Below the pieces are notes generated by a model. It saw only the letters and a program-made list of their open reading frames with translations. It was not told where the DNA came from and did no database searches. Positions 1-15,496 of a stretch of DNA of 15,496 nt are shown in pieces (position 1 is the stretch's first letter; every line of letters starts with the position of its first letter). The stretch is taken from assembly GCA_016280695.1 (NCBI GenBank), contig JAEEHG010000020.1, forward strand, positions 1 through 15,496, in the 5' to 3' direction. The position numbers were made by a program, and so were the translations under genes. The DNA comes from Solobacterium sp. GTDB lineage: Bacteria; Bacillota_I; Bacilli_A; Erysipelotrichales; Erysipelotrichaceae.

Positions 1-1
1 T

Positions 2-340
2 GAAATCCTTGCCAAGACCTTCATCGAGGGCACAACCACAGAGAACATCTACCTCGGCGGCGGCAACGTCTTCGAAGACACCAAAGAGAACAATGCCCTG
101 GTTGACTTCATTGACAAGATCAGCCAGCAGTATGGTTACGGTTCTGTCGGCAAGGTCTTCCTGGGCGGCGGTTCCGATGCCCCGAACTTTGCCCGTTACG
201 GCGCCATCACCATCTGCGCCTGCGGTGTCCTGGGTGAATGGAACCACACAGACCGTGAATATGCGATTGTTGAATCCATGTTCACAAGAGCCAAGATGTG
301 GGGCGCTGTCGTCACACATCTGAACGAACACAAGCATTAA
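2..340 (+). CDS. M20-family metallopeptidase, C-terminal fragment (cut by window edge)
   Basis: An open frame runs from the window edge to a TAA stop; the start lies outside, so only the last 112 residues are visible. The fragment carries the closing catalytic-domain signature of M20 zinc peptidases: GGGSDAPNFARYGAIT, followed by GEWNHTDREYA, where the His is the expected last metal ligand. The same arrangement (GGGSDASHVA...FNHTENEYA) occurs in the complete M20 enzyme at the other end of this window. Members hydrolyse dipeptides, N-acyl amino acids or folyl-glutamates in the cytoplasm. A YfcC-type permease follows after 38 bases with no terminator between, suggesting an uptake-and-hydrolysis operon. 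Substrate cannot be read from this fragment. Confidence 0.85.
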   Translation, partial: EILAKTFIEGTTTENIYLGGGNVFEDTKENNALVDFIDKISQQYGYGSVGKVFLGGGSDAPNFARYGAITICACGVLGEWNHTDREYAIVESMFTRAKMWGAVVTHLNEHKH

Positions 341-378
341 TTCCAGATTTGGTTGATAAATAAAGGAGATAGAAAACT

Positions 379-1746
379 ATGTCAACTGCTGCTGTACCGA
401 AGAAGAAGGGGTTCAAGATTCCGCATCTGTTCTTCCTCATCCTCTTCATCCTCATCTTCATGAGTCTTATGACTTATGTCATTCCGCCGGGAGTATTCGA
501 AGAAGGCGTCTTCACATATCTGCCTGAGAGAACTCCGGTCAATCCGTGGAAGGCAATGATGCTGATCCTGGACGGTATGAAGAATTCCGGCCAGATCGTC
601 GGCCTGCTTCTGGCTGCCGGTGGTTATACCAGCGTTGTTCTTTCCACCAAGTCCATTGACAAGATGATCGACTTCGCGATCTACAAGCTGCAGGACAAGG
701 GTATGTCCGTGCTCGTACCGGGCGTCTTCCTGCTCTACTGCTTCATCGGCTGCTTCGCCGGTGGTGACCAGATCATCGCGATGGTCCCGATCGGCCTCAT
801 GTTTGCCAAGAAGATGCGTCTTGACCCGGTCTGCGGTCTGGCTCTGGTCCTGTTTGCATATCATATCGGCGGTCTTTCTTCCCCGAACTATGCTATGCAG
901 CCGCAGCTGCTGATGGACGTCCCGGTTTACTCCGGCTTCGGTCCGCGTGTTGTCTGCTTCATCATCATTTCCCTGCTGTCCCTGCCGCCGGTTCTCAGCT
1001 ACTGCAAGAAGGTCGCTGCTGATCCGACAAAGTCCGTACTGCCGGTTGAAGACTGGGTTCCGGAACTGGATACAAAGGCTGATGCTGTTGAAGAAAAGAC
1101 AGTCAGCACACAGGATATTCTTACAGTTATCATCTTCCTGCTCCAGCCGATTCTCGCCCTCACCCTGGTCACAGGCATGAAGCTTGGCAACGGCGCTCTG
1201 GTTGCTCTGCAGATCATCCTGGCCATTGTCATTGGTCTGATTCACAAGTACGACATGGACAAGACCGGTAAGACATTCGCCCAGGGTACAGCCATGATGG
1301 CCTTCGTCGGCTACATCATCGGCTGTGCTTCCGCCATGTCTCTGGTTATGAGCCAGGGCCAGATCATTGCCACAATCGTCAACTTCTTCTGCATCCCGCT
1401 GAAGAACCTCGGTTCCGGTCTGGCTTCCGTCGGTATCTCCATGGTCTGCACAATCGTCAACATGATCGTTCCGTCCGCTTCTGCCAAGGCTGCCATCCTC
1501 TGCCCGATTATCAAGCCGATGTGCGAAAACCTCGGTATCACTCTGCAGATGGGTGTTCAGGCGCTGGGTTACGGCGACAAGCTGACAAACATCATTTCCC
1601 CGGTTCTGGGTACAACTGTTGCGGCTCTTGGCCTTGCCAACATTCCGTATGACAAGTGGTTCAAGTGGGTCGCTCCGAAAATCGCTTACATCGCAGTAAT
1701 CTGCTGGGCTTCCCTGTACGTTCTGTCGATGCTGGGCTTCGCGTGA
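379..1746 (+). CDS. yfcC: YfcC-family permease (C4-dicarboxylate/basic amino acid carrier superfamily)
   Basis: This 455-residue, very hydrophobic protein has about 11-12 predicted membrane segments. Family hallmarks are an N-terminus of basic residues then FKIPHLFFLILFILIF (12-27) leading to TYVIPPGVF (32-40), and a C-terminal block around residue 398 reading YGDKLTNIISPVLGTT followed by NIPYDKWFKW. A charged cytoplasmic-type loop lies near residues 210-245. YfcC proteins are inner-membrane carriers commonly annotated as basic amino acid or peptide transporters, but the substrate is poorly defined for most members. The start is supported by AAGGAGAT ten bases upstream. It shares a transcript with the preceding M20 peptidase, so a peptide or N-acyl amino acid substrate is a fair inference. 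The antisense strand is open over its whole length, which is a codon-usage effect. Confidence 0.85.
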   Translation: MSTAAVPKKKGFKIPHLFFLILFILIFMSLMTYVIPPGVFEEGVFTYLPERTPVNPWKAMMLILDGMKNSGQIVGLLLAAGGYTSVVLSTKSIDKMIDFAIYKLQDKGMSVLVPGVFLLYCFIGCFAGGDQIIAMVPIGLMFAKKMRLDPVCGLALVLFAYHIGGLSSPNYAMQPQLLMDVPVYSGFGPRVVCFIIISLLSLPPVLSYCKKVAADPTKSVLPVEDWVPELDTKADAVEEKTVSTQDILTVIIFLLQPILALTLVTGMKLGNGALVALQIILAIVIGLIHKYDMDKTGKTFAQGTAMMAFVGYIIGCASAMSLVMSQGQIIATIVNFFCIPLKNLGSGLASVGISMVCTIVNMIVPSASAKAAILCPIIKPMCENLGITLQMGVQALGYGDKLTNIISPVLGTTVAALGLANIPYDKWFKWVAPKIAYIAVICWASLYVLSMLGFA

Positions 1747-1779
1747 TTCTCTAAGCGGAAACAAGTCAAACAGTATTGG

Positions 1780-1822
1780 AAAAAGCATATTTCCTGGCTA
1801 AAACAGGAGATATGCTTTTTTT
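1780..1822 (+). terminator. Rho-independent terminator after the M20-yfcC operon
   Basis: A 17-bp stem with one G-T wobble (1780-1796 pairing with 1804-1820) closes a 7-base loop and ends in a run of seven T. It lies 34 bases after the yfcC stop codon. The A-rich left arm could also act on leftward transcripts. Confidence 0.9.
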
Positions 1823-1869
1823 GGTTCTTCTTATATTTATAACAGTTTATGTATGACAGACACCATTTA

Positions 1870-1919
1870 TATGCATAAAAACGTATTTTCTATTATGTTT
1901 TAATAGCAATGTATGCATG
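1870..1919. promoter_or_regulatory. Paired ATGCAT motifs upstream of lysR (candidate operator)
   Basis: TATGCATA (1870-1877) and TATGCATG (1912-1919) lie 42 bp apart, four helical turns, in the AT-rich region before the LysR gene. The same core appears as an inverted pair before the decarboxylase operon (8290-8321) and in an inverted repeat before the permease at 14115. LysR proteins usually autoregulate and bind dyads with a T-N11-A core, so these could be its sites. The assignment is inference. Confidence 0.35.
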
Positions 1920-1921
1920 AA

Positions 1922-1939
1922 TTGTATCGTGTATTACAT
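1922..1939. promoter_or_regulatory. Crp/Fnr-like palindrome upstream of lysR
   Basis: TTGTAT-CGTGTA-TTACAT matches 10 of 12 specified positions of the perfect palindrome TTGTAA-N6-TTACAA found at 10487-10504. It is centred at 1930.5. It would place a weak CAAAAT -10 box (1960-1965) at the class II distance, and also lies upstream of the better TATTAT box at 1968. Binding by the Crp/Fnr protein encoded at 10586 is inference. Confidence 0.4.
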
Positions 1940-1967
1940 ATTATCTTAATCAAAATAAACAAAATGG

Positions 1968-1973
1968 TATTAT
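1968..1973 (+). promoter_or_regulatory. Probable extended -10 box of the lysR promoter
   Basis: TGG-TATTAT forms an extended -10 element 37 bases before the lysR start codon. The -35 region (about 1945-1950, CTTAAT) is poor, as expected for a regulator-dependent or extended -10 promoter. Confidence 0.4.
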
Positions 1974-2010
1974 CCCTGCAAAAGCACTGACGCGGAAAGA
2001 GAGGCACCGA

Positions 2011-2916
2011 ATGGCAATTACAATATCTGAATTGATTTACTTTCTGAAAACTGCGGAGCTCCAGAATGTAACCAAAGCTGCGCAGGAACTGCATATTATG
2101 CAGCCGTCACTGAGCCGTTCCATTTCCGCCCTGGAAGATGACCTCGGTGTACAGTTGTTTGACCGTACCGGACGGAACGTTGTCCTGAACCGTTACGGGG
2201 AAATCGTGCAGAGCTACGCAGGCCGGATCATCAACCTGCTGGACACCATGCAGAATGAACTGAACAACGAGAAAGGCATCGGTGACAAGACAATCACTAT
2301 TTCCTTCTCTTCTGCCTCCACGCATCTGGCGGTGCTGATCAGTGATTTCAATAAGACATTCCCGGATATTCATTTCGATATCCTGCAGCACAATCAGCGT
2401 GAACTGAACGCTTTTTCCCGGCAGACCGACCTGAACATTTTCTCCAGTTCAGTCCCCATCAGCAATGATCATACCGTCATCCTGCTGCAGGAAAACCTCC
2501 TGCTGGCTGTGCCGGAAAATGATCCGGCTGCTTCCCTGCAGGATGTACGGCTTTCCGATTTTTCCGACCATGGTTTCATTGCCATGCAGAAATGGAATGA
2601 CCTGCGTACAATTACAGACTATTACTGCAAGATGGCCGACTTTGTCCCGCAGATCCTGCTGGAAAGCGACAGCCCGCATACCGTCCGTGAATTCATCAAG
2701 GCCGGTATCGGCGCTGCCTTCGTCCCGGAAATCACCTGGAGTGAAGTCAGCGGCGAAAACATCTCCCTGAAGCGGATCCAGTCCCCTTCCTGTGTCCGCT
2801 ATATCTGCCTGTCATGGAATCCTACCGGTTATCTCTCAGCACACGCAGCCCGGTTCCGGGACTTCCTGATCAATCATTTCGAGGAATACGCCCGCCGCGG
2901 CAAGACGGTCAGATAA
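2011..2916 (+). CDS. LysR-family transcriptional regulator
   Basis: The 301-residue length is normal for the family. An N-terminal winged helix-turn-helix spans about residues 4-65: NVTKAAQELHIMQPSLSRSI (19-38), then LEDDLGVQLFDRTGR (41-55) and the hydrophobic turn into the linker helix. A substrate-binding domain of the periplasmic-protein fold occupies about residues 90-295. The start is supported by GAGAGG seven bases upstream. The gene is monocistronic, lies between the yfcC terminator and its own terminator, and converges on the malonate-decarboxylase-like operon instead of diverging from it. Its target is therefore not given by position, but the shared ATGCAT motif makes that operon a candidate. 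The co-inducer is unknown. Confidence 0.93.
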   Translation: MAITISELIYFLKTAELQNVTKAAQELHIMQPSLSRSISALEDDLGVQLFDRTGRNVVLNRYGEIVQSYAGRIINLLDTMQNELNNEKGIGDKTITISFSSASTHLAVLISDFNKTFPDIHFDILQHNQRELNAFSRQTDLNIFSSSVPISNDHTVILLQENLLLAVPENDPAASLQDVRLSDFSDHGFIAMQKWNDLRTITDYYCKMADFVPQILLESDSPHTVREFIKAGIGAAFVPEITWSEVSGENISLKRIQSPSCVRYICLSWNPTGYLSAHAARFRDFLINHFEEYARRGKTVR

Positions 2917-2934
2917 TTCCTCATACAATTCCTC

Positions 2935-2959
2935 AAACGGGACCTAAGAGCCCGTTTTT
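2935..2959 (+). terminator. Terminator of lysR
   Basis: AAACGGG (2935-2941) pairs with CCCGTTT (2951-2957) across a 9-base loop and continues into a T run, starting 18 bases after the lysR stop. Confidence 0.75.
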
Positions 2960-2975
2960 CCATGCCTCCTGATAC

Positions 2976-3007
2976 AAAAAACCGGTTCCGTACAGAACCG
3001 GCTTTTT
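2976..3007. terminator. Bidirectional terminator between lysR and the decarboxylase operon
   Basis: CCGGTTC (2982-2988) and GAACCGG (2995-3001) form a stem around the loop CGTACA. It is flanked by A-run 2976-2981 and T-run 3003-3007, so it can act on both strands. For the minus strand it sits 14 bases past the beta-subunit stop codon. Confidence 0.88.
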
Positions 3008-3021
3008 GTTGTTTTCAGCGC

Positions 3022-4185
3022 TTATTTGAAGAACAGCAGCAGCATGCCTGCCGCAACCGCCGAACCGATGACACCGGCCACATTCGGGCCCATGGCGTGC
3101 ATCAGCAGGAAGTTGGAAGGATTGTACTTCTGGCCTTCCTTCTGGACAACTCTGGCTGCCATCGGAACTGCCGAGACACCGGCCGCGCCGATCAGCGGGT
3201 TGGTCTTGCCGCCGTCCAGCTTGCTCATGAGCTTGCCCAGCATGATACCGCCGGCCGTACCCATGGAGAAGGCAACGACACCCAGGACGATGATCTTGAT
3301 GGTCTCGGCCCGCAGGAACATTTCAGCCGAAGCCTTGGCACCAACGGTAACGCCCAGGAAGATCGAAACAATATACATCAGGGAATTCTGCAGGGCATCC
3401 ACCAGATGCGGCACCCGGCCACTTTCCTTGATCAGGTTGCCCAGCATGAGCATGCCGATCAGCGGTGCGGCATCCGGCAGCAGCAGGATCGTGAAGATCG
3501 TTACCACAATCGGGAAGATGATCTTTTCGGTCGTGCTGACAGGACGCAGCTGTTCCATCTTGATCTTGCGCTCTTCTTCCGTTGTGAGCAGCTTCATGAT
3601 CGGCGGCTGAATGACCGGGACCAGAGCCATGTAGGAATAGGCCGCAATGGCAATCGCGCCCAGCAGGTGCGGGGCCAGCTGGCTGGTCAGCAGCAGGGCC
3701 GTCGGGCCGTCAGCACCGCCGATAATACCGATGGAGGCCGCTTCCCGGCCAGTAAAGCCCAGGAAGATCGCACCGAAGAAGGTAACGAAGATACCCAGCT
3801 GGGCAGCCGCGCCCAGCAGCAGGCTCTTCGGGTTGGCAATCAGCGGTCCGAAGTCCGTACCGGCGCCGATGCACAGGAAGATGAGCGGCGGATAAATACC
3901 CAGATCAACACCCTGGTACAGGTAGTAGAGCAGGCCGCCGTGTTCATCCCCGATCGCATGCTTCATCAGACCGGCAAACGGGAAATTCACCAGCAGCATG
4001 CCAAAGGCAATCGGAATCAGCAGATACGGTTCGAAGCCTTTTTTGATAGCCAGATACAGGAACAGACAGGCCAGCAGGATCATGACCAGATGGCCCGGGA
4101 TCATAATCCCGAACAGTTCTGTGTCCAGAGCGAAGATCTGAGAAAACCCTGTACTGTTCCAGAAATCGAGCAGTATATCAAGCAT
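3022..4185 (-). CDS. oadB: Sodium-pump decarboxylase, beta (membrane) subunit
   Basis: This 387-residue polytopic membrane protein belongs to the OadB/MmdB/GcdB/MadB family, which decarboxylates carboxybiotin and couples this to Na+ export. Diagnostic motifs are [11 protein letters not shown] (153-163), with the Asp at 159 matching the Na+-binding Asp of OadB, and [18 protein letters not shown] (329-346), carrying the conserved Asn, Ser and Arg. Hydrophobic segments cover roughly 25-48, 53-75, 99-140, 152-200, 222-250, 268-285, 295-318 and 365-386. Length matches MmdB/GcdB forms near 375-390 residues. AGGAGG overlaps the biotin-carrier stop codon 11 bases upstream, so translation is probably coupled. 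It is the last gene of the operon. No key residue appears to be missing. Confidence 0.95.
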
Positions 4186-4196
4186 GAGGGCTCCTC

Positions 4197-4673
4197 CTAT
4201 CGCAGGGATACGAGCAGGTCACCCGCAGCCACTGTCTGGCCCTTGCTGACGGAAACAGATGCCACAGTGCCATCGGACGGAGCGACGATTTCATTCTCCA
4301 TCTTCATGGCTTCAATGACCACCAGGGTCTGGCCGGACTTGACGGCATCACCGGCCGCGACATTCACTGCCAGGATCGTCCCCTGCAGCGGGGCGGTCAC
4401 ATCACCGGCACCCGCCGGGGCAGCAGCCTTGGCCGGGGCAGCCGGAGCCGCAGCGACCGGGGCCGGCGCAGCCTGAACAACCGGAGCCGGCGCAGGAGCC
4501 GGGGCCGGACCGGCACCGGACTTGACGAATCGCGTCGGGGCCTGGCCCTGGTCATAGACCGGAGCCGGAACTCTCTCCATCGGTGCTTCAATATTGCCGG
4601 TAACGGTACCGAGTTCTTCAACTTCTACTTCGTGTGTCTTTCCATCGACAACAATGCGGAATTTCTTAATCAT
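4197..4673 (-). CDS. Biotin carboxyl carrier subunit of the decarboxylase
   Basis: This 158-residue protein has the expected three parts. An N-terminal segment (1-50) begins [18 protein letters not shown], a flexible Ala/Pro-rich linker covers about 55-90, and a biotinyl domain covers 92-158. The biotin attachment motif is EAMKM with Lys at 124, preceded by APLQGTI and followed by the second half of the hammerhead fold ending in DLLVSLR. It carries CO2 as carboxybiotin from the carboxyltransferase to the membrane beta subunit. It corresponds to MmdC/GcdC. It lies 15 bases after the gamma-subunit gene and 11 before the beta-subunit gene. The linker is encoded by GC-rich repeated codons, a compositional feature common to this family. 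Confidence 0.95.
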
Positions 4674-4688
4674 CTTTCTATCCTCTCT

Positions 4689-5039
4689 TTACTGCAGTGA
4701 ATTTGTTCTTGAAATGCGGCTCCAGTCAGACTCACCGCTGACCGGGCGGATGCTGCGGACAACAAACTGGCTTGAGTTCTTGCCCAGATAGGCAGCGACG
4801 GCGGCGGTAATGGCCGCGGTGATTTCCCCGCTGTCCTGTACCGGTGCTTTGACCGGTTCCGGCTCCGGGGCAGCCGCTGCGGCAATTGCCTGTACCGGGG
4901 AAGGTGCCTTCTTCCGGTTCAGAATTTTCGCTGTCAGCGTAATCAGCCATGATATGGACAGAAGCACCAGGAAGACGATGCTGATCGAAAACAGGCACAC
5001 CGTAACCGCCTGGGATAACGTTAACTGATCTCCAAACAT
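4689..5039 (-). CDS. oadG: Sodium-pump decarboxylase, gamma (OadG-type) subunit
   Basis: This 116-residue protein has one N-terminal membrane helix (about 11-37), a basic stop NRKK, and an Ala/Pro linker (45-68). Its C-terminal tail (71-116) contains EITAAITAAVAAYL, then FVVRSIRPV and WSRISRTNSL, the usual closing pattern of OadG/MmdD/GcdD proteins. In characterised systems this subunit anchors the carboxyltransferase to the membrane and assembles the complex. AAGGAG sits five bases before the start, only 9 bases after the carboxyltransferase stop. No small epsilon-type (MmdE) gene accompanies it here. Confidence 0.88.
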   Translation of the reverse strand: MFGDQLTLSQAVTVCLFSISIVFLVLLSISWLITLTAKILNRKKAPSPVQAIAAAAAPEPEPVKAPVQDSGEITAAITAAVAAYLGKNSSQFVVRSIRPVSGESDWSRISRTNSLQ

Positions 5040-5048
5040 GATGGCTCC

Positions 5049-6596
5049 TTACAGCGGAATGTTGCCGTGCTTCTTCAGCGGCTTGCTGACCCGCTTGCCC
5101 TGCAGTGATTCAAAGGCAGAGATCAGATACTTTCTGGATTCATGCGGCATGATGACATCATCCACATAACCGCGGGAAGCCGCGATATACGGATTCATCA
5201 TGGTATCCTGATATTCCTTGATCCGGGCTTTTCTTTCAGCTGCCGGATCTTCGGCATTCTTGATGGCTCTGGAGAAGATAATGTTGGCTGCACCCTCGGC
5301 GCCCATGACGGCGATTTCCGTATCCGGCCAGGCGTAGACAAAGTCTGCCCCCAGATGCTTGGAGCACATGCCGATGTAGGCACCGCCGTAGGCCTTGCGG
5401 GTAATCAGCGTGACCTTCGGTACGGAAGCCTCACTGTAGGCAAACAGCATCTTGGCCCCGTGCCGGATAATGCCGCCATGTTCCTGGGCCGTGCCCGGCA
5501 GGAAGCCCGGGACATCTTCCAGGGTCAGCAGCGGGATATTGAAGGCATCACAGGTCCGGATGAAACGGCTGGCCTTGTCGCTGGAGTTGATGTCCAGAAC
5601 ACCTGCCATGGCCTTCGGCTGGGAAGCGATGACGCCGATGCTGCGGCCGTTGAGACGGATGTAGCCGGTGATGATGTTCGGCGCAAAGTATCTCTGGTAT
5701 TCGAAGAACTCACCGTTGTCGGCGATCGAATGGATGATGTCGTACATGTCATATGCCTTGTTCGGATTCTCCGGGACAATCGTGTCGAGCATTTCATCTT
5801 CCCGGTTGAGGTCGTCCGTGCAGGCATACTGCGGCGCGGTTTCATTGTTGTTCTGCGGCAGGAAGGTCAGCAGCGCGCGGATTTCCTGCAGGCAGGAATC
5901 TTCATCGGCACAGGCGAAGTGGGCACAGCCGGAAATCCGGTTGTGCGCCATGGCGCCGCCGAGGGCCTCGGCAGTAACTTCCTCACCGGTAACGGCCTTG
6001 ATGACCTGCGGGCCGGTAATGAACATTTCACCGGTACCCTGCACCATGAAGATGAAGTCGGTAATGGCCGGGGAATACACGGCACCGCCGGCACACGGAC
6101 CCATGATGACGGAAATCTGCGGAATGACACCACTCGCCATCGTGTTGTTGTAGAAGATGCGGCCATAGCCGGCCAGGGCGTCAACACCTTCCTGAATCCG
6201 GGCCCCGCCGGAGTCATTGATGCTGATCATCGGGCAGCCGACCTTCATGGCTGCTTCCTGGGCAGCCGCGATCTTCTGCGCGTGCATTTCACCCAGCGAA
6301 CCGCCGATGACGGTAAAGTCCTGGGCGGAAGCGTAGGCCATGCGGCCGTTGATCAGGCCATAGCCGGTCACAACGCCGTCTCCGGCTGCTTCTTTCTTTT
6401 CCATGCCGAAATTGACACAGCGGTGTTTTACAAACAGGCCGGTTTCGACAAAGGTATCCGGATCGAACAGTCTTTCAAGCCGTTCCCGGGCCGTATACTT
6501 GCCCTGGCTGTGCTGTCTGTCGATGGCCTTTTCGCCGCCGCCCAGACGCAGCTGTGCTTTCCGGTCCAGCATTTCCTGCTGCTTAACAGTAGTCAT
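5049..6596 (-). CDS. mmdA: Carboxyltransferase (alpha) subunit of a biotin-dependent acyl-CoA decarboxylase, MmdA/PccB family
   Basis: This 515-residue protein matches the usual length of MmdA (about 510) and is clearly shorter than GcdA (about 590). The N-terminal crotonase-like half has SGGARIQEG (129-137) and MGPCAGGAVYSPAITDF (165-181). The C-terminal half has DVPGFLPG (361-368), GGIIRHGAKML (374-384) and RKAYGGAYIGM (400-410). These motifs form the two oxyanion pockets that hold the acyl-CoA thioester and biotin. It moves the free carboxyl group of malonyl-CoA or methylmalonyl-CoA to biotin. Ile408 sits where Streptomyces PccB has the Asp that favours propionyl over acetyl groups, which fits a small acyl group but does not prove it. 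TAGGAGA precedes the start, 11 bases after the mdcA-like gene. Confidence 0.93.
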   Translation of the reverse strand: MTTVKQQEMLDRKAQLRLGGGEKAIDRQHSQGKYTARERLERLFDPDTFVETGLFVKHRCVNFGMEKKEAAGDGVVTGYGLINGRMAYASAQDFTVIGGSLGEMHAQKIAAAQEAAMKVGCPMISINDSGGARIQEGVDALAGYGRIFYNNTMASGVIPQISVIMGPCAGGAVYSPAITDFIFMVQGTGEMFITGPQVIKAVTGEEVTAEALGGAMAHNRISGCAHFACADEDSCLQEIRALLTFLPQNNNETAPQYACTDDLNREDEMLDTIVPENPNKAYDMYDIIHSIADNGEFFEYQRYFAPNIITGYIRLNGRSIGVIASQPKAMAGVLDINSSDKASRFIRTCDAFNIPLLTLEDVPGFLPGTAQEHGGIIRHGAKMLFAYSEASVPKVTLITRKAYGGAYIGMCSKHLGADFVYAWPDTEIAVMGAEGAANIIFSRAIKNAEDPAAERKARIKEYQDTMMNPYIAASRGYVDDVIMPHESRKYLISAFESLQGKRVSKPLKKHGNIPL

Positions 6597-6607
6597 AGAT
6601 TCTTCTC

Positions 6608-8236
6608 CTATTTCTTAAAGCTTGCCGGCACTTCATACAGTCCGCCGGAGATTTCTGCGAGTTCATCGAGGGTCTTGGCTGCCAGCAGGTCCCTGTTGGC
6701 CCGGGCCGGATCGATATCCAGATCTTCCGGATAGGCAACCTTACCGGCTTTTCTGAGTTCGGCGATCTCTTCCTTGGTGAGTTTGTCACCCAGCGGCGTG
6801 CCCTGGGCTACAGCCCCCATCAGGCGGCCTCTTTCCTCAGCGTCCGCAGCCATGTACAGGTAGGCAATGCCCTGTTCGGTGACCACGTGTGTGACATCTT
6901 CGCCGTACATCATGACCGGTACGGAGTCCATGCCGGCATCACGGCCGATCTTGACTGCGTCCAGTTCAGGCACGAAGGCCGGGCCGAACTTGGAAGAGCT
7001 CTTGACCATCTGCACGACCAGCTTGCGGCCGGAGATCATTGAGCCGTTGCCCGGAGCCATATCCTTCCAGGCCTGGGTGACGTGTCTTCTGCCGCCGGAC
7101 ATGTTGCCCATGTTCGGGGCGCCGCCGTAACCGGACAATCTGCCGTTGGTAACGGTGGAAGAGTTGCCGGCGTAGTCCATCTGCAGGGTGCCGCCGAGGA
7201 ACAGGTCCATGCCGTACAGACCGGCGACCTGTGCCAGTGCGCGGTTGGAGCGGAGCGAGCCGTCCTTACCGGTGAAGAAGATGTCCGGTCTGGCCGCAGC
7301 GTATTTTTCCATGCCGACTTCACCGCCGAACGCGCAGACCTGCTTGACCCAGCCGTCTTCAATCGCCGGGATCAGCGTCGGATGCGGATTCAGCACCCAG
7401 TGTGTGCAGATCTTGCCCTTCAGACCCAATTCATTGCCGTAGGTCGGCAGCAGCAGTTCAATGGCACAGCCGTTGTAGCCGATGCCGTGGTTCAGGGACA
7501 TGACCCCATGCTTGGCATAGATGCCCTTGATGACCATCATGCCCATCAGGATGTGTGCGTCCTGAATCTTGGCCGGATCCCTGGTGAACAGCGGTACCAT
7601 CGGGTACGGCTGGTCAGCCTTGACGATATAGTCAATCCAGTCACCGGGGATATCCACCCGCGGCAGTTCTTCGGTTTCGACAATTTCATTAACCTGTACG
7701 ATGACGATGCCGTTCTTGAAGGCAGCCGCCTCGGCAATGGTCGGGGTTTCTTCAGTATTGTGGCCGGTGAACAGGTTGCCGTGCCGGTCCGCCTTGTCCG
7801 CGGCCAGCAGCACCACATTCGGGGTCAGGTCAACATACAGACGGCCATACAGTTCCAGATAGGTATGGATCGCACCGATCCGCAGCTTGCCTTCTGACAG
7901 GTACTTCGCCAGCTGCAGGCTCTGCACACCCGCAAACGCGAAGTTCAGTTCCTCGGCAATACCCCTGGCGAACAGTTCCAGATGTTCATCCCGTGAGATT
8001 GACGGAATGATCATGTTCAGGTGATTGATTTTTTCCGGGCTGACCTTTGTCAGGGCACCGGCGAGGAAGGCAGCCTGCTTCTGGTTGCACCCTTCCAGGA
8101 CAACCTTGTCATGCGGTCTTATGACCGCCTCAAGAAACGGGACAATGTCTTCGGTAGACACGATCTTCCCGTTTGTCAGAGAAGCTGCCGCATCCATTCT
8201 TTCCGCTTTGGAAAGCTTCTGTGTATTCCACTCCAT
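6608..8236 (-). CDS. mdcA: MdcA/MadA-like malonate CoA/ACP transferase
   Basis: The 542-residue length fits MdcA, the alpha subunit of malonate decarboxylase, which exchanges acetyl for malonyl on a thioester carrier. Supporting motifs are EGCNQKQAAFLA (48-59), the first-domain block LAADKADRHGNLFTG (144-158), LNHGIGYNGCAIELLLPTYG (248-267), and the family signature GYGGAPNMGNMSGGRRH (369-385). A distant relation to citrate-lyase alpha and other CoA-transferases is expected. The start is set by AAAGGAGAATAGCAC before the ATG. It is first in the operon, 11 bases before the carboxyltransferase. No MdcC/MadE acyl carrier protein, MdcD/E pair or MdcB/G/H maturation gene is in the window, so CoA is more likely than ACP as thioester carrier. 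Malonate is the simplest substrate; another small dicarboxylate remains possible. Confidence 0.85.
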   Translation of the reverse strand: MEWNTQKLSKAERMDAAASLTNGKIVSTEDIVPFLEAVIRPHDKVVLEGCNQKQAAFLAGALTKVSPEKINHLNMIIPSISRDEHLELFARGIAEELNFAFAGVQSLQLAKYLSEGKLRIGAIHTYLELYGRLYVDLTPNVVLLAADKADRHGNLFTGHNTEETPTIAEAAAFKNGIVIVQVNEIVETEELPRVDIPGDWIDYIVKADQPYPMVPLFTRDPAKIQDAHILMGMMVIKGIYAKHGVMSLNHGIGYNGCAIELLLPTYGNELGLKGKICTHWVLNPHPTLIPAIEDGWVKQVCAFGGEVGMEKYAAARPDIFFTGKDGSLRSNRALAQVAGLYGMDLFLGGTLQMDYAGNSSTVTNGRLSGYGGAPNMGNMSGGRRHVTQAWKDMAPGNGSMISGRKLVVQMVKSSSKFGPAFVPELDAVKIGRDAGMDSVPVMMYGEDVTHVVTEQGIAYLYMAADAEERGRLMGAVAQGTPLGDKLTKEEIAELRKAGKVAYPEDLDIDPARANRDLLAAKTLDELAEISGGLYEVPASFKK

Positions 8237-8289
8237 GTGCTATTCTCCTTTTTTTACTTTTAAATAATAAATAGAGAATAGATAACGAA

Positions 8290-8321
8290 TTATGCATGTT
8301 GCGGTGGTTGCCAATGCATAA
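8290..8321. promoter_or_regulatory. Inverted repeat before the decarboxylase operon (candidate operator)
   Basis: TTATGCAT (8290-8297) and ATGCATAA (8314-8321) form a perfect 8-bp inverted repeat with a 16-base spacer, about two helical turns centre to centre. It lies 54 bases upstream of the mdcA-like start and downstream of the racemase-operon terminator, so it falls in the only space available for the operon promoter. I see no strong -35 box here, as expected for an activator-dependent promoter. The LysR protein at 2011 is a candidate ligand because the same core occurs in its own upstream region. Confidence 0.45.
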
Positions 8322-8342
8322 ACGGTTATGTATTTGCGGAAC

Positions 8343-8379
8343 AAAAAAAGGCGCATTCCCGCAGCTGCGGGAATACACC
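8343..8379 (-). terminator. Terminator of the PLP enzyme-racemase operon
   Basis: On the minus strand GGTGTATTCCCGCAG pairs with CTGCGGGAATGCGCC (8379-8365 with 8364-8350, two G-T wobbles) and is followed by seven T (8349-8343). The central 20 bases are a perfect palindrome. It begins 6 bases after the racemase stop and insulates the decarboxylase operon downstream. Confidence 0.9.
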
Positions 8380-8385
8380 TTCTGC

Positions 8386-9099
8386 TCAGTAATAAACCGT
8401 CGGATTAATGCCGTATTCCAGAAGATTTGCCGTTGAAATGATGTCAAATACAGGAACATCCAGATCTTCCCGGAGGGCCCGGGCATACGAAGGGAGATTG
8501 CTGCATTCCAGGATGACCGCTTTCAGGTCCGGGGTCTTTTCCTTCAGCTTCCGGCCGGCGTTCAGCACATCCTGTTCCATCCTGGCCACATCGATGTCAT
8601 GACCGCCGTTGATGACAATCTCGGCAAAGTGGGCCTCGTCCTCCATGCCCTGGATGGACAGGCGGATATCGGGTGTCCAGCCGGAGTTCATGATGTGCTT
8701 CATGCTGAGCAGTTCGGAATGGCCGGTAATGATGCCGATGGCACCGCTGCGGCCGATCAGCTGCCAGACCAGGGGAATCTGCACCAGGGCCGAGCCGGCA
8801 AACAGGAGGTCAGCCTCCCTGCCGATTTCGTGCTGATACAGCGACATCATGCCGCAGTCCCCCAGCACGGTCCTGATCCCGTATTTCTTCAGATTCAGGC
8901 AGCCGTCAATGATCCTCTGCCGGATCTCGTCCGAACCCTGAATCAGGTCCGCGAATCCGCCCTGAATGACTTCATAACGGACCTGATAATCAAATGTTTC
9001 AGCATTGCCGGCATCGCCCGGAATCCGCGGCGTATCGGTCGAGAACACGAGAATCCCGACGTTCTGTCCGTAGAACGGACGGCCAGTTTCGATCTTCAT
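8386..9099 (-). CDS. Asp/Glu/hydantoin racemase-family protein
   Basis: This 237-residue protein shows the N-terminal signature TPRIPGDAGNAETF (23-36) typical of a widespread, mostly uncharacterised branch of the Asp/Glu racemase superfamily. The two catalytic-type cysteines are present: Cys82 in VLGDCGMMS and Cys199 in VILECSNLPSY, one per lobe of the pseudo-symmetric fold. A Cys pair points to racemase or isomerase chemistry and away from arylmalonate decarboxylase, which has only the second Cys. It starts 9 bases after the class V PLP enzyme stop with no clear ribosome binding site, so translation is probably coupled. It may act on the same amino acid-like substrate as that enzyme. The substrate is not readable from sequence. 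Confidence 0.82.
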   Translation of the reverse strand: MKIETGRPFYGQNVGILVFSTDTPRIPGDAGNAETFDYQVRYEVIQGGFADLIQGSDEIRQRIIDGCLNLKKYGIRTVLGDCGMMSLYQHEIGREADLLFAGSALVQIPLVWQLIGRSGAIGIITGHSELLSMKHIMNSGWTPDIRLSIQGMEDEAHFAEIVINGGHDIDVARMEQDVLNAGRKLKEKTPDLKAVILECSNLPSYARALREDLDVPVFDIISTANLLEYGINPTVYY

Positions 9100-9108
9100 G
9101 GAAACCGA

Positions 9109-10359
9109 TTACTTGTTGTAATCCGGCTCTCTGCCGACCAGGGCGATGATGTCCTTCATGCCCTTGATCATGGCATCGATGTCTTCCTTGACATTGAACC
9201 ACTGGCAGGAGATACGGAAACCGCCGACACTGTCAGTGAATCTCTGGGCAACGAAGATGTTCTTGGCATGCAGTTCACGCATGATCATGCGGTCGAATTC
9301 CGGATCCTTGTACAGGCGGGCGATGATGATGCCGGCCCGGCGTTCCGGATCGCGGTGTGTGATGCATGTGCCGCCGATCGCTTCGATCTGGTCCATGCAG
9401 TATTCACCCAGTTCCCAGACATGTTCCTGGATGTTCTCAATGCCGATTTCGTTGACCAGGCCGAGGGATTCACCCAGGGCGATGGCACCGGCATAGTTGG
9501 ATGTACCGCCGATTTCATACTTGCGGGCTGTGTTCGGGAATGTCCAGTCATAGACAGCCTGGGCATCAACCTTCTCCCAGTAAGCGCCCCAGCCGCCTTC
9601 CGGAACAGTTGTGTTCAGGTAGCCGCCGTAGGACTGCTTGATCTTGTCCAGGGAACCCTTGTTGACATACAGGATACCTGTGCCGTACGGGCTGTTGGCC
9701 CACTTGTGGCCGCCGGCAGCCAGCAGGTCGATGTGGCACTGCTTGGTGTCGATCTTTGTGACACCCATCTGCTGGACCGCGTCAACAACGAACATGATGT
9801 TGTTGGCCTGGCACCAGTCACCGATTTCCTTCAGGTCGCTGGCCCAGCCGTTGCACCATTCAACCGTGGACATGACCAGGATCTTGGTTGTTTCATCCGC
9901 CAGCTTGGCGAAGTCAGAAGCGCGGAACCGGTTGTCTTCAGTCTTGCAGACGCGGATGTCAATGTTCTTTGTCTTCCGCATCAGGCACCACGGCAGGGCA
10001 ACCTGGATGAATTCGAGGTTGGTTGTGATGATGCTGTCACCGTCATTGAGCTCGATACCGGCTGCGGCGATGTTCAGACCATGGGATGTGGATTCGATCA
10101 GCGCGATTTCTTCCGGATCGGCATTGAAGAGCTTCTGTGCTTCTTCGTACGCCTTGCCGCGCAGGCTGTCCATGGCGATATGATGTGCGGAGCTGTTTTC
10201 CTCGTCCTGTACACCGGTCATGTCAGCGAAAGCCTTGACGGCGTTGATGGCACGCTGCGGCGCGAAGCTGACACAGGCGGCATCCAGGAATGTCATGGTT
10301 TCGAGGACCGGGAATTCCCTGGCCCGCAGTTCTCTCCAGTTAATGTCTTTTGCACTCAT
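9109..10359 (-). CDS. Class V aminotransferase-fold PLP enzyme (cysteine desulfurase/isopenicillin N epimerase-like)
   Basis: The chosen ATG at 10359 gives 416 residues and follows GGGAGG by eight bases; an in-frame TTG start at 10386 would add nine residues but would itself overlap that site. PLP-binding features are DAVQQ (193-197), AAGGHKW (214-220) with Lys219 as the Schiff-base lysine, and YEIGGTSNYAGAIALGESL (281-299), the phosphate-binding and family signature. Members include cysteine desulfurases, kynureninase, epimerases and lyases, so the reaction cannot be assigned. It shares an operon with a racemase-family protein and diverges from a Crp/Fnr regulator, with a Crp-like palindrome centred at -41.5 of its predicted promoter. 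No Fe-S assembly scaffold is nearby, which argues against a housekeeping IscS role. Confidence 0.85.
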   Translation of the reverse strand: MSAKDINWRELRAREFPVLETMTFLDAACVSFAPQRAINAVKAFADMTGVQDEENSSAHHIAMDSLRGKAYEEAQKLFNADPEEIALIESTSHGLNIAAAGIELNDGDSIITTNLEFIQVALPWCLMRKTKNIDIRVCKTEDNRFRASDFAKLADETTKILVMSTVEWCNGWASDLKEIGDWCQANNIMFVVDAVQQMGVTKIDTKQCHIDLLAAGGHKWANSPYGTGILYVNKGSLDKIKQSYGGYLNTTVPEGGWGAYWEKVDAQAVYDWTFPNTARKYEIGGTSNYAGAIALGESLGLVNEIGIENIQEHVWELGEYCMDQIEAIGGTCITHRDPERRAGIIIARLYKDPEFDRMIMRELHAKNIFVAQRFTDSVGGFRISCQWFNVKEDIDAMIKGMKDIIALVGREPDYNK

Positions 10360-10410
10360 TCTCTTTTCCTCCCTTTTTCCAATCAAGAAATGTGTACGTT
10401 TTACACGGTA

Positions 10411-10439
10411 AGCATAACCGCTCCTTGAAAAAGTATTTG
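10411..10439 (-). promoter_or_regulatory. Predicted promoter of the PLP enzyme-racemase operon
   Basis: On the minus strand TATGCT (10416-10411) is a -10 box, 17 bases from the weak -35 CAAATA (10439-10434). The implied start is near 10404. The poor -35 overlaps the Crp-like site 10437-10454, whose centre falls at -41.5, the usual class II activator position. Confidence 0.45.
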
Positions 10440-10454
10440 TAAACCAGATGACAA
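10437..10454. promoter_or_regulatory. Crp/Fnr-like operator, imperfect
   Basis: TTGTAA-ACCAGA-TGACAA differs at one position from the perfect palindrome 50 bp away at 10487-10504. Position relative to the leftward promoter suggests activation of the PLP-enzyme operon. Confidence 0.55.
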
Positions 10455-10486
10455 ACAGCGGAAAAAACCAAAAAAGATTTTTTTAT

Positions 10487-10504
10487 TTGTAACGAATATT
10501 ACAA
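10487..10504. promoter_or_regulatory. Crp/Fnr-like operator, perfect palindrome
   Basis: TTGTAA-CGAATA-TTACAA is a perfect 6+6 inverted repeat, extending to TTTGTAA/TTACAAA. It lies 81 bases before the Crp/Fnr start. Position 10495.5 is about 42 bp before a start that would use TATTTT (10526-10531) as -10, so autoregulation is likely. It lies about 91 bp upstream of the leftward start. Confidence 0.6.
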
Positions 10505-10585
10505 AACTGTCTGATAATAAAATCGTATTTTATACATGACAGCGAAGTTCATTGCCGAAACATGCACGCGGAAAGGAACGGTACC

Positions 10586-11284
10586 ATGAATAAACATCAG
10601 TCAACTTCTCCGTGGATTTCCGGTGATCTGGAATGCCTGCGGGCATTGACGGATAACCGGCTGCCGGCCGCATACAAAAAAGATGCCATTGTGTATTACC
10701 AGGATGACGCGGCAGAAAACATTTTCATTGTCAAATCCGGCCGGATACGGATTACTACCTATGCCGAAAACGGCTTGGAAAAACAGGTATTTATTGCAGA
10801 AAAAGGAGCGGTTTTCGGAGAATTGTCCGCCCTGGTGGACAGTGTCTACCGCTGCAGCGCCGTTGCCATTGTCGACGCGCAGATCTACCGGATCCCGATT
10901 GGTGAATTCATGCGGATTCTGGAATCTGACTGGAAAACCGCCGCCTACTTCATCCGCTCGCTGTGCCGCAAGGGTCTGACCTTTGAGCAGGAAATCCTGG
11001 ATCTTTCCTTCATGCAGGCGACCCACCGGACCATCAAAACCCTGCTGAACCTGTGTGACCAGTACGGCACCCCCTGTATGGTGGATGGCCGGCCGGGCAC
11101 CCGGATCAACATCCGGTTCTCCCATCAGGATGTCGCCAACCTGATCGGTTCCAACCGGGTAACCGTATCCAACATCTTCTCTGACCTGGCCAAAAACGAC
11201 ATCGTTACCAAGGACAGCGGACGCTACATCGTACTGAACCGGCAGAAAATGCTTGACCTGCTGGAACAGGAATCAGAACTATAG
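10586..11284 (+). CDS. Crp/Fnr-family transcriptional regulator
   Basis: The ATG at 10586 follows GGAAAGGAACG by a normal distance and gives 232 residues; an upstream in-frame ATG at 10562 lacks a site. A cyclic-nucleotide-binding-type beta-barrel covers about 25-115 (IFIVKSGRIRITTY 46-59; VFGELSALVDSVYRCSAVAI 77-96). A dimer helix spans about 116-145, and the winged helix-turn-helix is at 179-215 (SHQDVANLIGSNRVTVSNIF). The cysteines (17, 90, 127, 157, 164) do not form the N-terminal cluster of Fnr, so oxygen sensing through an Fe-S cluster is unlikely. The recognition helix RVTVSN lacks the Glu found in Crp (RETVGR) and Fnr (ETISR). The effector is unknown. An ElaA-type gene follows in the same operon. 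Confidence 0.92.
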   Translation: MNKHQSTSPWISGDLECLRALTDNRLPAAYKKDAIVYYQDDAAENIFIVKSGRIRITTYAENGLEKQVFIAEKGAVFGELSALVDSVYRCSAVAIVDAQIYRIPIGEFMRILESDWKTAAYFIRSLCRKGLTFEQEILDLSFMQATHRTIKTLLNLCDQYGTPCMVDGRPGTRINIRFSHQDVANLIGSNRVTVSNIFSDLAKNDIVTKDSGRYIVLNRQKMLDLLEQESEL

Positions 11285-11295
11285 GAGGACAGTAT

Positions 11296-11757
11296 ATGAA
11301 ATACGTGATCAAAACATTCGATGAACTGACAAAAGAAGAACTTTATGATATCGCCCGTCACCGCCAGACAGTCCTGATTATCGGCCAGGGAAACATCTTC
11401 CATGACCTCGACGGCCGGGATAATGAATGCATTCACCTGTCAGCTTACGATGATGACGGAATGATCGGCTATTCACGCATCATGCCCAGTTCCACCGGCC
11501 TGCACGGCGACAACGGTTCCTTCGGCCGTCTCTCTGTGCTGGAAGAAAAAAGAAAGCACGGTACGGGCAGCGAACTGGTCAGAAGATCCGTGGATTATCT
11601 GCAGAACACCCTGCATGAGCCGAAGATCATGATTTCCGCAATGTCCTATCTGGAGCACTTCTACAACCGCCTCGGCTTTGAACGCGTCGGCGATCTGTAC
11701 TTCATTGAAGGCGTTGAACACATCAACATGATCTACACCGGCAAGCCGCACGAATAA
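11296..11757 (+). CDS. elaA: ElaA-family GNAT acetyltransferase
   Basis: This 153-residue protein fits the ElaA branch of GNAT N-acetyltransferases. It has the N-terminal FDELTKEELYDIARHRQTV (8-26) and DLDGRDNECIHL (37-48). The acetyl-CoA-binding strand and loop cover FGRLSVLEEKRKHGTGSELV (76-95). The C-terminal block is YLEHFYNRLGFERVGDLYF followed by EGVEHINM. It would transfer an acetyl group to a small-molecule or protein amine; the ElaA substrate is not established. An excellent AGGAGG site precedes the start, and only 11 bases separate it from the Crp/Fnr gene, so the two are co-transcribed and ended by the hairpin at 11768. Confidence 0.85.
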   Translation: MKYVIKTFDELTKEELYDIARHRQTVLIIGQGNIFHDLDGRDNECIHLSAYDDDGMIGYSRIMPSSTGLHGDNGSFGRLSVLEEKRKHGTGSELVRRSVDYLQNTLHEPKIMISAMSYLEHFYNRLGFERVGDLYFIEGVEHINMIYTGKPHE

Positions 11758-11767
11758 ACATACAGAA

Positions 11768-11790
11768 AAGGCTCTTCACTGAAGAGCCTT
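11768..11790. terminator. Terminator between convergent elaA and pfkA
   Basis: AAGGCTCTTC and GAAGAGCCTT form a perfect 10-bp stem with the loop ACT. It begins 10 bases after the elaA stop and lies 10 bases beyond the pfkA stop on the other strand. It probably serves both, though the T tracts on either side are short. Confidence 0.82.
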
Positions 11791-11800
11791 ATTTAATCTG

Positions 11801-12793
11801 TTAATCTTCCGGGAAAGCCTTGATGCCGACTGTCTCAAGGATTTCATACCGATCCATCTGCAGGCTGCGCTTCATCTTCAGCGCCTCCTCAATCGGGATT
11901 GCCGTAATCGCGCCGTTCTGGATGCAGATGACGGTATTTTCTTTTTCTTCGGCAAAGGCCTTGACCGCGTAATAGCCCATCCGGGTTGCCGTTTCACGAT
12001 CTCTGGCACTCGGCGAACCGCCGCGCTGGATATGGCCCAGTACGGTCACCCGGGGATCAATGCCGATTTCATCCCTGATGGCAGCCGCGATGTCATAAGC
12101 CTTGCCGGCTCCTTCCGCCACAACGATCATGAAATGTGTATTGCCGGCAATGCGTGAATCCCGGATCTTTTCAATGACGTCTTCTTCGATATTGAGCTTC
12201 TTCTCCGGCACCAGCACGGCGGTTGCCCCGACGGCTATGCCGACATACAGCGCCAGGAAGCCGGCATCCCGTCCCATAACCTCAATCACTGAGCAGCGCT
12301 CATGCGACTGCATGGTATCCCGCAGTTTATCGATGCAGTCAATGGCTGTATTGCAGGCGGTATCAAAGCCGATCGAGTAGTTCGTGCAGCCGATGTCGTT
12401 ATCAATTGTTGCCGGCACCCCGACCACCGGGATACCCATGCGGGACAGCTCCAGCGCGCCGCGGAACGTACCGTCCCCGCCGATGGCCACGATTCCGTCA
12501 ATGCCCAGCATCTTGCAGGTCGCAACAGCCTTTTTCCGGCCTTCCTTTGTTTTGAACTCCTCACTGCGGGCAGTGTAGAGAATGGTTCCGCCCCGGGTCA
12601 GGATATGGCTGACACTGCCTGGCTTGAGAACCTCAAAGTCCCCGGAAATCAGCCCGTGCCATCCCCGGCGGATACCGATGCATTCAATTCCCATGGACTG
12701 TGCGGTCCGGACAACTGCCCGGACGGCCGCGTTCATGCCCGGCGCGTCACCGCCGCTGGTCAGTACGCCGATCCGATCGATTTTCTTTTCCAT
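11801..12793 (-). CDS. pfkA: 6-phosphofructokinase, ATP-dependent type
   Basis: This enzyme phosphorylates fructose 6-phosphate to fructose 1,6-bisphosphate in glycolysis. With the start at 12793 it has 330 residues, near the usual 320. The open frame extends to an ATG at 12823, but GGCGG sits correctly before 12793 and MEKKIDRIGVLTSGGDAPG begins as family members do. Motifs are GGDGTF (105-110) for nucleotide binding, PATIDNDI (127-134) with catalytic Asp131, MGRDAGFLAL (173-182), and LGHIQRGGSPSARDR (252-266). Gly108 and Ala128 occupy the two positions where PPi-dependent enzymes carry Asp and Lys, so ATP is the likely donor. The gene stands alone between terminators, with its own TATAAT. 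Confidence 0.95.
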   Translation of the reverse strand: MEKKIDRIGVLTSGGDAPGMNAAVRAVVRTAQSMGIECIGIRRGWHGLISGDFEVLKPGSVSHILTRGGTILYTARSEEFKTKEGRKKAVATCKMLGIDGIVAIGGDGTFRGALELSRMGIPVVGVPATIDNDIGCTNYSIGFDTACNTAIDCIDKLRDTMQSHERCSVIEVMGRDAGFLALYVGIAVGATAVLVPEKKLNIEEDVIEKIRDSRIAGNTHFMIVVAEGAGKAYDIAAAIRDEIGIDPRVTVLGHIQRGGSPSARDRETATRMGYYAVKAFAEEKENTVICIQNGAITAIPIEEALKMKRSLQMDRYEILETVGIKAFPED

Positions 12794-12837
12794 ATGTGCC
12801 GCCTTTCCAAATGCCCAAGGCACTTTACAACAAATAA

Positions 12838-12843
12838 ATTATA
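12838..12843 (-). promoter_or_regulatory. -10 box of the pfkA promoter
   Basis: The minus strand reads a consensus TATAAT here, 44 bases upstream of the chosen pfkA start and downstream of the neighbouring permease terminator. No good -35 is evident at 16-18 bases. Confidence 0.55.
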
Positions 12844-12871
12844 TAACTCCCGGAAGCGTTAAGAAAGAATC

Positions 12872-12900
12872 AAAAAGCAGGAATCGCGGACGATTCCTGC
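12872..12900 (-). terminator. Terminator of the M20 peptidase-permease operon
   Basis: GCAGGAATCG and CGATTCCTGC form a perfect 10-bp stem (12900-12891 with 12886-12877) around a 4-base loop, followed on the minus strand by five T and TTGATT. It lies 27 bases after the permease stop. Confidence 0.92.
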
Positions 12901-12927
12901 CTGTTTGGAATGCTTCTGTACCTGCTC

Positions 12928-14115: not shown

Positions 14116-14157
14116 AATTTTTCCCCTTTTTTTTATTTTTCAGTTAATCAGTTGGTT

Positions 14158-14174
14158 GATGCACAGTATGCATC
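14158..14174. promoter_or_regulatory. Inverted repeat between M20 peptidase and permease genes
   Basis: GATGCA-CAGTA-TGCATC is a perfect 6-bp inverted repeat with a 5-base spacer. It sits 42 bases upstream of the permease start and contains the ATGCAT core seen before lysR and the decarboxylase operon. It could be an internal operator or a weak RNA hairpin. Confidence 0.3.
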
Positions 14175-14185
14175 TGAAGTCATTG

Positions 14186-15364: not shown

Positions 15365-15396
15365 ACAAACCTCCTTTTTTCAGATTTGGCAGTTAC

Positions 15397-15425
15397 ATTA
15401 TTTTATGAATAATTTCGCAAAACTG
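15397..15425 (-). promoter_or_regulatory. Predicted promoter of the M20 peptidase operon
   Basis: On the minus strand AATAAT (15402-15397) serves as -10, 17 bases from the weak -35 CAGTTT (15425-15420); start near 15390. An alternative register uses TAAAAT with -35 TTACAG, three bases upstream. Either way the -35 overlaps the Crp-like site 15423-15440. Confidence 0.45.
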
Positions 15426-15440
15426 TAATTTTTACTACAT
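15423..15440. promoter_or_regulatory. Crp/Fnr-like operator upstream of the M20 peptidase
   Basis: CTGTAA-TTTTTA-CTACAT keeps the TGTA-N8-TACA core of the perfect site at 10487-10504 and matches 9 of 12 specified bases. Its centre lies 41.5 bp upstream of the predicted start at 15390, the same geometry as the site before the PLP-enzyme operon. Confidence 0.45.
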
Positions 15441-15496
15441 ATAACAAAAAACACAAAAATCCTTTGTTTTTTCTCGAAGAACTGTTCATGGCTGCA

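Follow-up and report, generated by a model that had tools for sequence, protein, structure and literature searches.

A five-gene unit from Solobacterium sp. predicted to encode a malonate decarboxylase Na+ pump that works without an acyl carrier protein

The malonate decarboxylase of Malonomonas rubra has been described as a biotin-dependent Na+ pump. Its mad gene set includes the acyl carrier protein (ACP) MadE and a carboxyltransferase that is split into MadC and MadD. A route by way of malonyl-coenzyme A (malonyl-CoA) reportedly has a biochemical precedent in the work of Dehning and Schink from 1994, the title of which names malonyl-CoA as an intermediate, and extracts of Sporomusa malonica are said to contain a CoA transferase together with an avidin-sensitive decarboxylase. 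To our knowledge, the genes of the S. malonica route were not identified in that work, and we know of CoA-based, ACP-free anaerobic malonate use only from such experiments with cell extracts. Here, we analysed a stretch of DNA of 15,496 nucleotides (nt) from Solobacterium sp., a member of the Erysipelotrichaceae (GenBank assembly GCA_016280695.1, contig JAEEHG010000020.1, positions 1 to 15,496; the window in the following), which carries five adjacent genes whose products are likely to form a malonate decarboxylase Na+ pump that resides in the membrane and requires no ACP. In the literature searched, which comprised open-access papers only, no description of this five-gene arrangement or of the proposed route was found.

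The genes are arranged on the minus strand in the order mdcA-mmdA-oadG-biotin carrier-oadB (window 8236-3022; Table 1). They are separated by gaps of 9-15 nt, thus leaving no room for a small additional gene within the unit. The initial annotation of this DNA had recognized an MdcA-like transferase next to a complete MmdA-OadG-biotin carrier-OadB set, and Pfam and NCBIfam models confirmed all five genes and their positions. Its expression "fused by operon" is appropriate for adjacent genes read as co-transcribed, but does not extend to a fusion of proteins. MdcA barely passed the cut-off of the curated NCBIfam model for mdcA, TIGR01110 (790.9 versus 789.15), and possesses the malonate-site residues of a solved MdcA (see below), in line with its grouping within the MdcA family. 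The carboxyltransferase, of the MmdA type acting on CoA thioesters, is a single chain spanning the whole of PF01039, and the split MadC/MadD form was not encountered. OadB reached 492 bits with TIGR01109 (cut-off 190.6), and only 177.7 bits with the MadB-type model TIGR03136, the cut-off of which is 596.9. A search of the window with the MdcC, MdcDE, MdcG and MdcH proteins of Clostridium carboxidivorans yielded no match.

Based on these families, MdcA would shift CoA from acetyl-CoA to malonate, thereby releasing malonyl-CoA and acetate. The MmdA-type subunit would then carboxylate the biotin of the carrier protein with the free carboxyl group taken from malonyl-CoA and regenerate acetyl-CoA, and OadB, acting with OadG, is predicted from strong family resemblance to convert carboxybiotin and H+ to biotin and CO2 while Na+ is exported. 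The net reaction would be malonate + H+ -> acetate + CO2 coupled to Na+ export, with acetyl-CoA playing a catalytic role. The two-step cycle envisaged in the initial annotation, namely CoA transfer to malonate followed by Na+-coupled decarboxylation, is supported, although the involvement of CoA, malonate and Na+ is deduced from sequence comparisons. With regard to the cation, the solved structure of the oxaloacetate decarboxylase beta subunit connects the residues D203, S382 and N412 with the binding of Na+ (PMC7274780), and their equivalents D159, S338 and N368 are kept in the OadB protein of the window.

Table 1. Features of the window discussed in the text, with positions, strand and supporting matches
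Feature	Position	Strand	Evidence
mdcA, malonate transferase alpha subunit, proposed acetyl-CoA:malonate CoA-transferase	6608..8236	-	PF16957, 840.6 bits
mmdA-like carboxyltransferase, proposed malonyl-CoA:biotin carboxyltransferase	5049..6596	-	One chain of 515 amino acids; PF01039, 659 bits
oadG-like small membrane subunit	4689..5039	-	PF04277, 59.8 bits; TIGR01195, 42.7 (cut-off 36.05)
Biotin carrier protein	4197..4673	-	EAMKM motif and Ala/Pro linker; PF00364, 72.1 bits
oadB-like carboxybiotin decarboxylase, Na+ pump subunit	3022..4185	-	PF03977, 529.8 bits
Terminator-like hairpin and T-run	8346..8383 (8383-8346)	-	17-pair stem, 8 GC pairs; between racemase-like gene and mdcA
LysR-family regulator	2011..2916	+	PF00126 and PF03466; convergent with the unit
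DcuC/YfcC-family transporter	379..1746	+	PF03606, 132.9 bits; YfcC, 124 bits (below cut-off of 500)
Asp/Glu-racemase-like and class V aminotransferase genes, 9 nt apart	8386-10386	-	Racemase: PRK07475, 203.8 bits (cut-off 231)

To assess the conservation of the unit, named genomes were scanned with an alignment of 16 MdcA sequences, and the best 80 of a larger number of loci were kept, with S. malonica not among the organisms represented. All reading frames of these loci were searched with the proteins of the window and the four C. carboxidivorans proteins mentioned above. In the 27 of the kept loci with the closest MdcA (L002-L028, 63-99% identity; pump loci in the following), mmdA follows mdcA without exception. 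Twenty-three of them harbour the full five-gene set, comprising 22 detected by the search and L025, in which OadG was missed yet a fitting reading frame is present, while the unit is cut by a contig end in the other four (L008, L014, L018, L023). Such a survey of gene neighbourhoods for the same five-gene order had been suggested in the initial annotation. MdcC, MdcDE, MdcG and MdcH had no match in any of the 27 pump loci. The remaining 53 loci (L029-L081, 58-61% identity) are of the canonical type, with MdcDE present in 50, MdcC in 49, and MdcG and MdcH in 48 each; the contig ends right after mdcA in three of them (L059, L065, L071), and L047 lacks a match to MdcC. MmdA, OadG, the biotin carrier and OadB were absent from all 53. 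The association of mdcA with mmdA therefore exceeds chance and is that of a conserved system.

The unit occurs in gut bacteria, and the genomes with pump loci include those of the cultured Hungatella hathewayi DSM 13479, represented by a complete chromosome, and H. effluvii DSM 24995 (draft genome), as well as metagenome-assembled genomes of Erysipelotrichaceae, Angelakisella, Ruthenibacterium, Lachnospiraceae, Clostridiaceae and a Spirochaetaceae bacterium. The occurrence of the unit is patchy. Among 195 genomes of the window's family, seven gave full-length matches, in one case distributed over two contigs; a phylum sample of 392 genomes had one match, in the window's own genome, and of 391 genomes from the class of H. 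hathewayi two matched, namely H. hathewayi itself and a candidate at 59%.

In a tree of 82 MdcA sequences calculated with a quick method, one branch with a support of 100 lies between the 28 pump-linked proteins (27 loci and the window) and the 54 canonical sequences, which comprise 53 loci and the solved Pseudomonas MdcA (5VIT); in this tree, the long branch leading to L026-L028 adjoins the canonical sequences. A more careful tree of 49 rows, in which L026-L028, the near-copies L004, L005 and L025, and half of the canonical rows (27 of 54) were left out, kept the split at 100/100. Both trees are rooted at the midpoint, so that whether the pump group is truly monophyletic is a matter of where the root lies. 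A division was also obtained for the carboxyltransferase, for which a tree of 58 sequences split the 28 MdcA-linked proteins from 30 other clostridial MmdA, the best-scoring ones from a sample of 148 clostridial genomes, at 100/100.

Residues of the substrate site point to malonate as the acid that is activated. Ten positions of this site, as well as the mutated docking positions discussed below, are known from the solved Pseudomonas MdcA (PMC5534430). All ten are kept in the MdcA of the window. Across the 28 pump and 53 canonical sequences, nine are unsubstituted, with one pump sequence lacking one position, and the tenth is occupied by I, V or L. The Arg, Asn, Gln and Phe that contact malonate in the solved protein are invariant in all 28 pump sequences, which argues against a different acid (methylmalonate, succinate or glutaconate, for example) being the substrate of a methylmalonyl-CoA or other acyl-CoA decarboxylase equipped with its own activating transferase. 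Such a function would be compatible with a carboxyltransferase that falls within the MmdA/PccB family. However, a methylmalonyl-CoA mutase was absent from 27 of the 28 pump genomes, including that of the window, which is 77% complete, and was found only in the genome of L008 (G007:C185:2108-4524); methylmalonyl-CoA is therefore unlikely to be the main substrate. Moreover, the linked MmdA proteins form the separate group described above, with ten positions differing from the 30 other MmdA at 85% or more, and the genes flanking the unit in L026-L028 suggest a malonate-forming pathway. Position 408 of MmdA, which we take to be the equivalent of the acyl-specificity site of PccB, was considered as a substrate decider and rejected for lack of power: the Ile found there also occurs in 17 of the 30 other MmdA, and in this respect, which leaves some room for a different acid, the linked proteins are not set apart. 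On balance, we regard a substrate other than malonate as unlikely.

A second question is whether an ACP is still involved. In a manner resembling Malonomonas, MdcA might load a carrier, of the CitD type or another, whose gene lies elsewhere, and MmdA would then act on malonyl-ACP. In the study of the Pseudomonas enzyme, F424A was the sole single change that broke the MdcA complex (PMC5534430). This MdcC-docking position is occupied by F, Y or H in all 53 canonical sequences and by S, A, K, R or Q in all 28 pump sequences, so that the aromatic docking residue has been lost throughout, which speaks against continued use of an ACP. Position I490 is V, I or A in the canonical group, and G in 27 and A in one of the pump sequences. 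E466 and R521 also differ between the groups, but they are changed as well in the ACP-bearing canonical loci L029, L036 and L046, and only F424 and I490 therefore discriminate; the use of all four mutated docking positions as a diagnostic was abandoned for the same reason. In a column-rank test, which included E466 and R521 and took columns as independent, 18 of 100,000 random four-column sets were as divergent, and three of 100,000 when drawn from the 405 columns conserved in the canonical group. The MdcE-docking residue R500 is variable in both groups alike.

The search for candidate carrier genes extended to the genomes. The CitD/MdcC carrier model PF06857, to which MadE presumably also belongs, gave 16 matches in 11 of the 28 pump genomes, which at first sight favours a carrier gene at another site, and it also matched both canonical controls. 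The other 17 pump genomes are devoid of such a gene, and an ACP of the MdcC/CitD type was found neither in the window's genome nor in the complete chromosome of H. hathewayi. In addition, all 16 matches were read, in 15 stretches, and 15 of them adjoin two families identified in one stretch (L082) as CitF and CitE; in the other stretches, clustering with this one provided the assignment. The remaining match (L087) is located close to where a contig of 4 kb ends and could not be placed in a citrate-lyase set for this reason; its neighbours cluster with genes that flank citrate-lyase-type sets in L093, L094 and L096. The MdcD model TIGR03133 was matched above its cut-off in none of the 28 pump genomes and in both canonical controls. 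Weaker matches below the cut-off occurred in all 28, with the MmdA-type gene among them, as is expected because MmdA-type proteins are present. The absence of MdcDE, MdcG and MdcH applies to the window and the 27 pump loci, to which the searches for MdcE alone, MdcG and MdcH were confined rather than genome-wide; MdcB was not sought. MdcA itself is present in one copy per pump genome, except for one genome in which it is split over two contigs. The lack of an ACP and of its maturation genes, as noted in the initial annotation, thus holds in part: for the ACP, in the window's genome and the H. hathewayi chromosome, together with the low MdcD scores; for maturation, with respect to MdcG and MdcH in the loci retrieved. 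Together with the CoA type of the carboxyltransferase, these findings render the use of an ACP improbable.

Several observations nevertheless weigh against an ACP-free pump. Apart from the shared E466 and R521 changes, which would also be in line with ACP use, the comparison of docking residues covered the 28 pump and 53 canonical sequences, with Malonomonas MadA not among them, and the incomplete genome of the window may have a gap where a carrier gene resides, which does not apply to the complete chromosome of H. hathewayi. The MmdA-type carboxyltransferase of the window remained below the mmdA cut-off of TIGR01117 (856.7 versus 998.8 bits), a value that was reached in none of the 148 clostridial genomes sampled. 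A biotin ligase was found in 25 of the 28 pump genomes, and not in the other three. Most of the malonyl-CoA decarboxylase activity of S. malonica is said to be soluble rather than bound to the membrane, and this is hard to match with a pump. Finally, canonical MdcA is described as a family II transferase that acts on ACP within a ternary complex and has no acidic catalytic residue, and the use of free CoA therefore constitutes a predicted change of carrier. Despite these points, we consider the ACP-free malonate pump to be the probable function of the five genes.

The five genes look like a separate transcription unit, since a strong terminator-like hairpin lies upstream of mdcA and a GGAG ribosome site precedes its ATG. 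Fourteen terminator-like sites were counted between positions 1700 and 10600, as compared to a mean of 7.7 after shuffling; among them, this hairpin ranks first in the number of GC pairs and second in stem length. The racemase-like and aminotransferase genes located beyond it were considered as members of the unit and excluded, because the hairpin separates them from mdcA and because a racemase gene upstream of mdcA recurs only in L002, the locus with 99% identical MdcA, among the 27 related loci. An Rfam search of the window gave no match. The LysR-family gene has counterparts that are divergent and upstream of mdcA in 17 of the 27 related loci, and the DcuC/YfcC-family transporter is a possible but unproven route of malonate uptake. 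Both neighbours, as well as the patchy presence in the family, fit a catabolic unit better than an operation in reverse, in which acetyl-CoA and CO2 would be converted to malonyl-CoA at the expense of the Na+ gradient for fatty acid synthesis. Reversal of decarboxylase pumps was reportedly addressed by Dimroth and Hilpert in 1984, as indicated by their title, and this counts in favour of such a function. Since MdcA would, however, waste the malonyl-CoA formed as malonate, we consider reverse operation highly improbable.

Other genes accompany the malonate pump in some of the related loci. A biotin ligase gene is located near the unit in five of them (L004, L005, L006, L017, L019), and a gene for a transporter of the AEC family (Mem_trans), of which MdcF is presumably a member, in L004-L007 and L011, three of which were scanned and two assigned by clustering. 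Genes for an M20-type hydrolase, a Crp-like regulator, a DcuC/YfcC-like transporter and a class V aminotransferase are found repeatedly in the vicinity of the malonate unit across different families, namely in L014 (1828-8214), in L012 (6283-9907) and in the window (379-1746, 9109-11284, 14186-15364), with not all members present everywhere; L014 additionally carries a CN-hydrolase gene and one for a transporter of the Na+:sulfate symporter family. It may be speculated that this group possibly forms a module releasing malonate, for instance from N-malonyl compounds. Another reading frame of the window, encoding 395 amino acids (12928-14115, minus strand), has an 835-bit match in L002, and no match in Pfam (1e-3) or NCBIfam (1e-20).

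An amidase gene follows oadB in six loci (L019, L024, L025 and L026-L028), of which L024 and L025 are cut by a contig end. In L026-L028, it is succeeded on the same strand by genes for an FdrA/AllF-like protein (480 versus a cut-off of 433 for the NCBIfam model of FdrA), AllG (PF06545) and a PF04199 cyclase, then by subunits of the XdhB, XdhC and XdhA types and by a permease of the NCS2 family, the best named match of which is a uracil permease (327 bits, below the cut-off of 477). The genome of L026 was scanned most fully, and L027 and L028 mainly by similarity. Molybdenum (Mo)-hydroxylase genes also occur near L019, and in L018 the terminal part of a gene for an NCS2 permease is located ahead of mdcA. 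Due to the flanking genes in L026-L028, we suggest uracil oxidation as a source of malonate. Barbiturate, ureidomalonate and malonate are intermediates of a uracil route for which there is an aerobic precedent. Uracil would be oxidized to barbiturate by the Mo hydroxylase, the ring of which would be opened by the PF04199 hydrolase to yield ureidomalonate; phosphorolysis by AllF/AllG would give malonamate and carbamoyl phosphate, and the amidase would release malonate for the Na+ pump. In some Clostridia, the pump might thus conserve energy as the final stage of a pathway that oxidizes pyrimidines anaerobically, an idea that we put forward tentatively as a serious possibility. If true, energy would be gained twice, and free-standing units such as that of the window would be offshoots that take up malonate directly.

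Several findings weigh against this idea. The trio of AllF, AllG and PF04199 cyclase is present in eight of ten other clostridial stretches (L143-L152), the other two being cut. Mo-hydroxylase genes occur in two of these stretches and nucleobase permease genes in some, and no pump genes lie within them, suggesting that the module has a wider role. Furthermore, the models best matched by the Mo subunits are those of xanthine dehydrogenase, although no score reached the cut-off, and no carbamate kinase was present among the scanned genes just beyond the permease. A fitting description of a route from uracil to a malonate pump was not found in the literature searched.

The unit described here would explain at the level of genes how malonate can be used anaerobically by way of CoA and without an ACP, and would illustrate how an enzyme working with a carrier protein may be converted to the use of free CoA and combined with a Na+ pump. 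Its presence in the cultured bacteria H. hathewayi and H. effluvii makes these predictions testable now. Standard naming would see only the two halves, "malonate decarboxylase alpha" and "methylmalonyl-CoA decarboxylase", and pathway tools may therefore predict incomplete malonate use or a false formation of propionate.

Compared with the known systems, the unit combines features of three enzymes. It resembles the Mad system of Malonomonas rubra in possessing a transferase of the MdcA/MadA kind, a biotin carrier and a membrane-bound carboxybiotin decarboxylase, and in the predicted coupling of malonate decarboxylation to Na+ transport, but differs from it in that no ACP was found, a one-chain carboxyltransferase of the CoA type takes the place of MadC and MadD, and OadB remains below the MadB-type cut-off. 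With the biotin-independent enzyme (MdcA-MdcC-MdcD-MdcE) of Pseudomonas and Klebsiella, it shares an MdcA with the same malonate site, whereas MdcC, MdcD and MdcE are absent from the unit and decarboxylation would, judging from the genes, be performed by a biotin-dependent Na+ pump instead. The Na+-translocating methylmalonyl-CoA decarboxylase (MmdA-D) is similar in that carboxyltransferase, OadG-type subunit, biotin carrier and OadB are all present; in contrast to that enzyme, the unit has a dedicated malonate transferase gene and occurs almost exclusively in genomes without the mutase.

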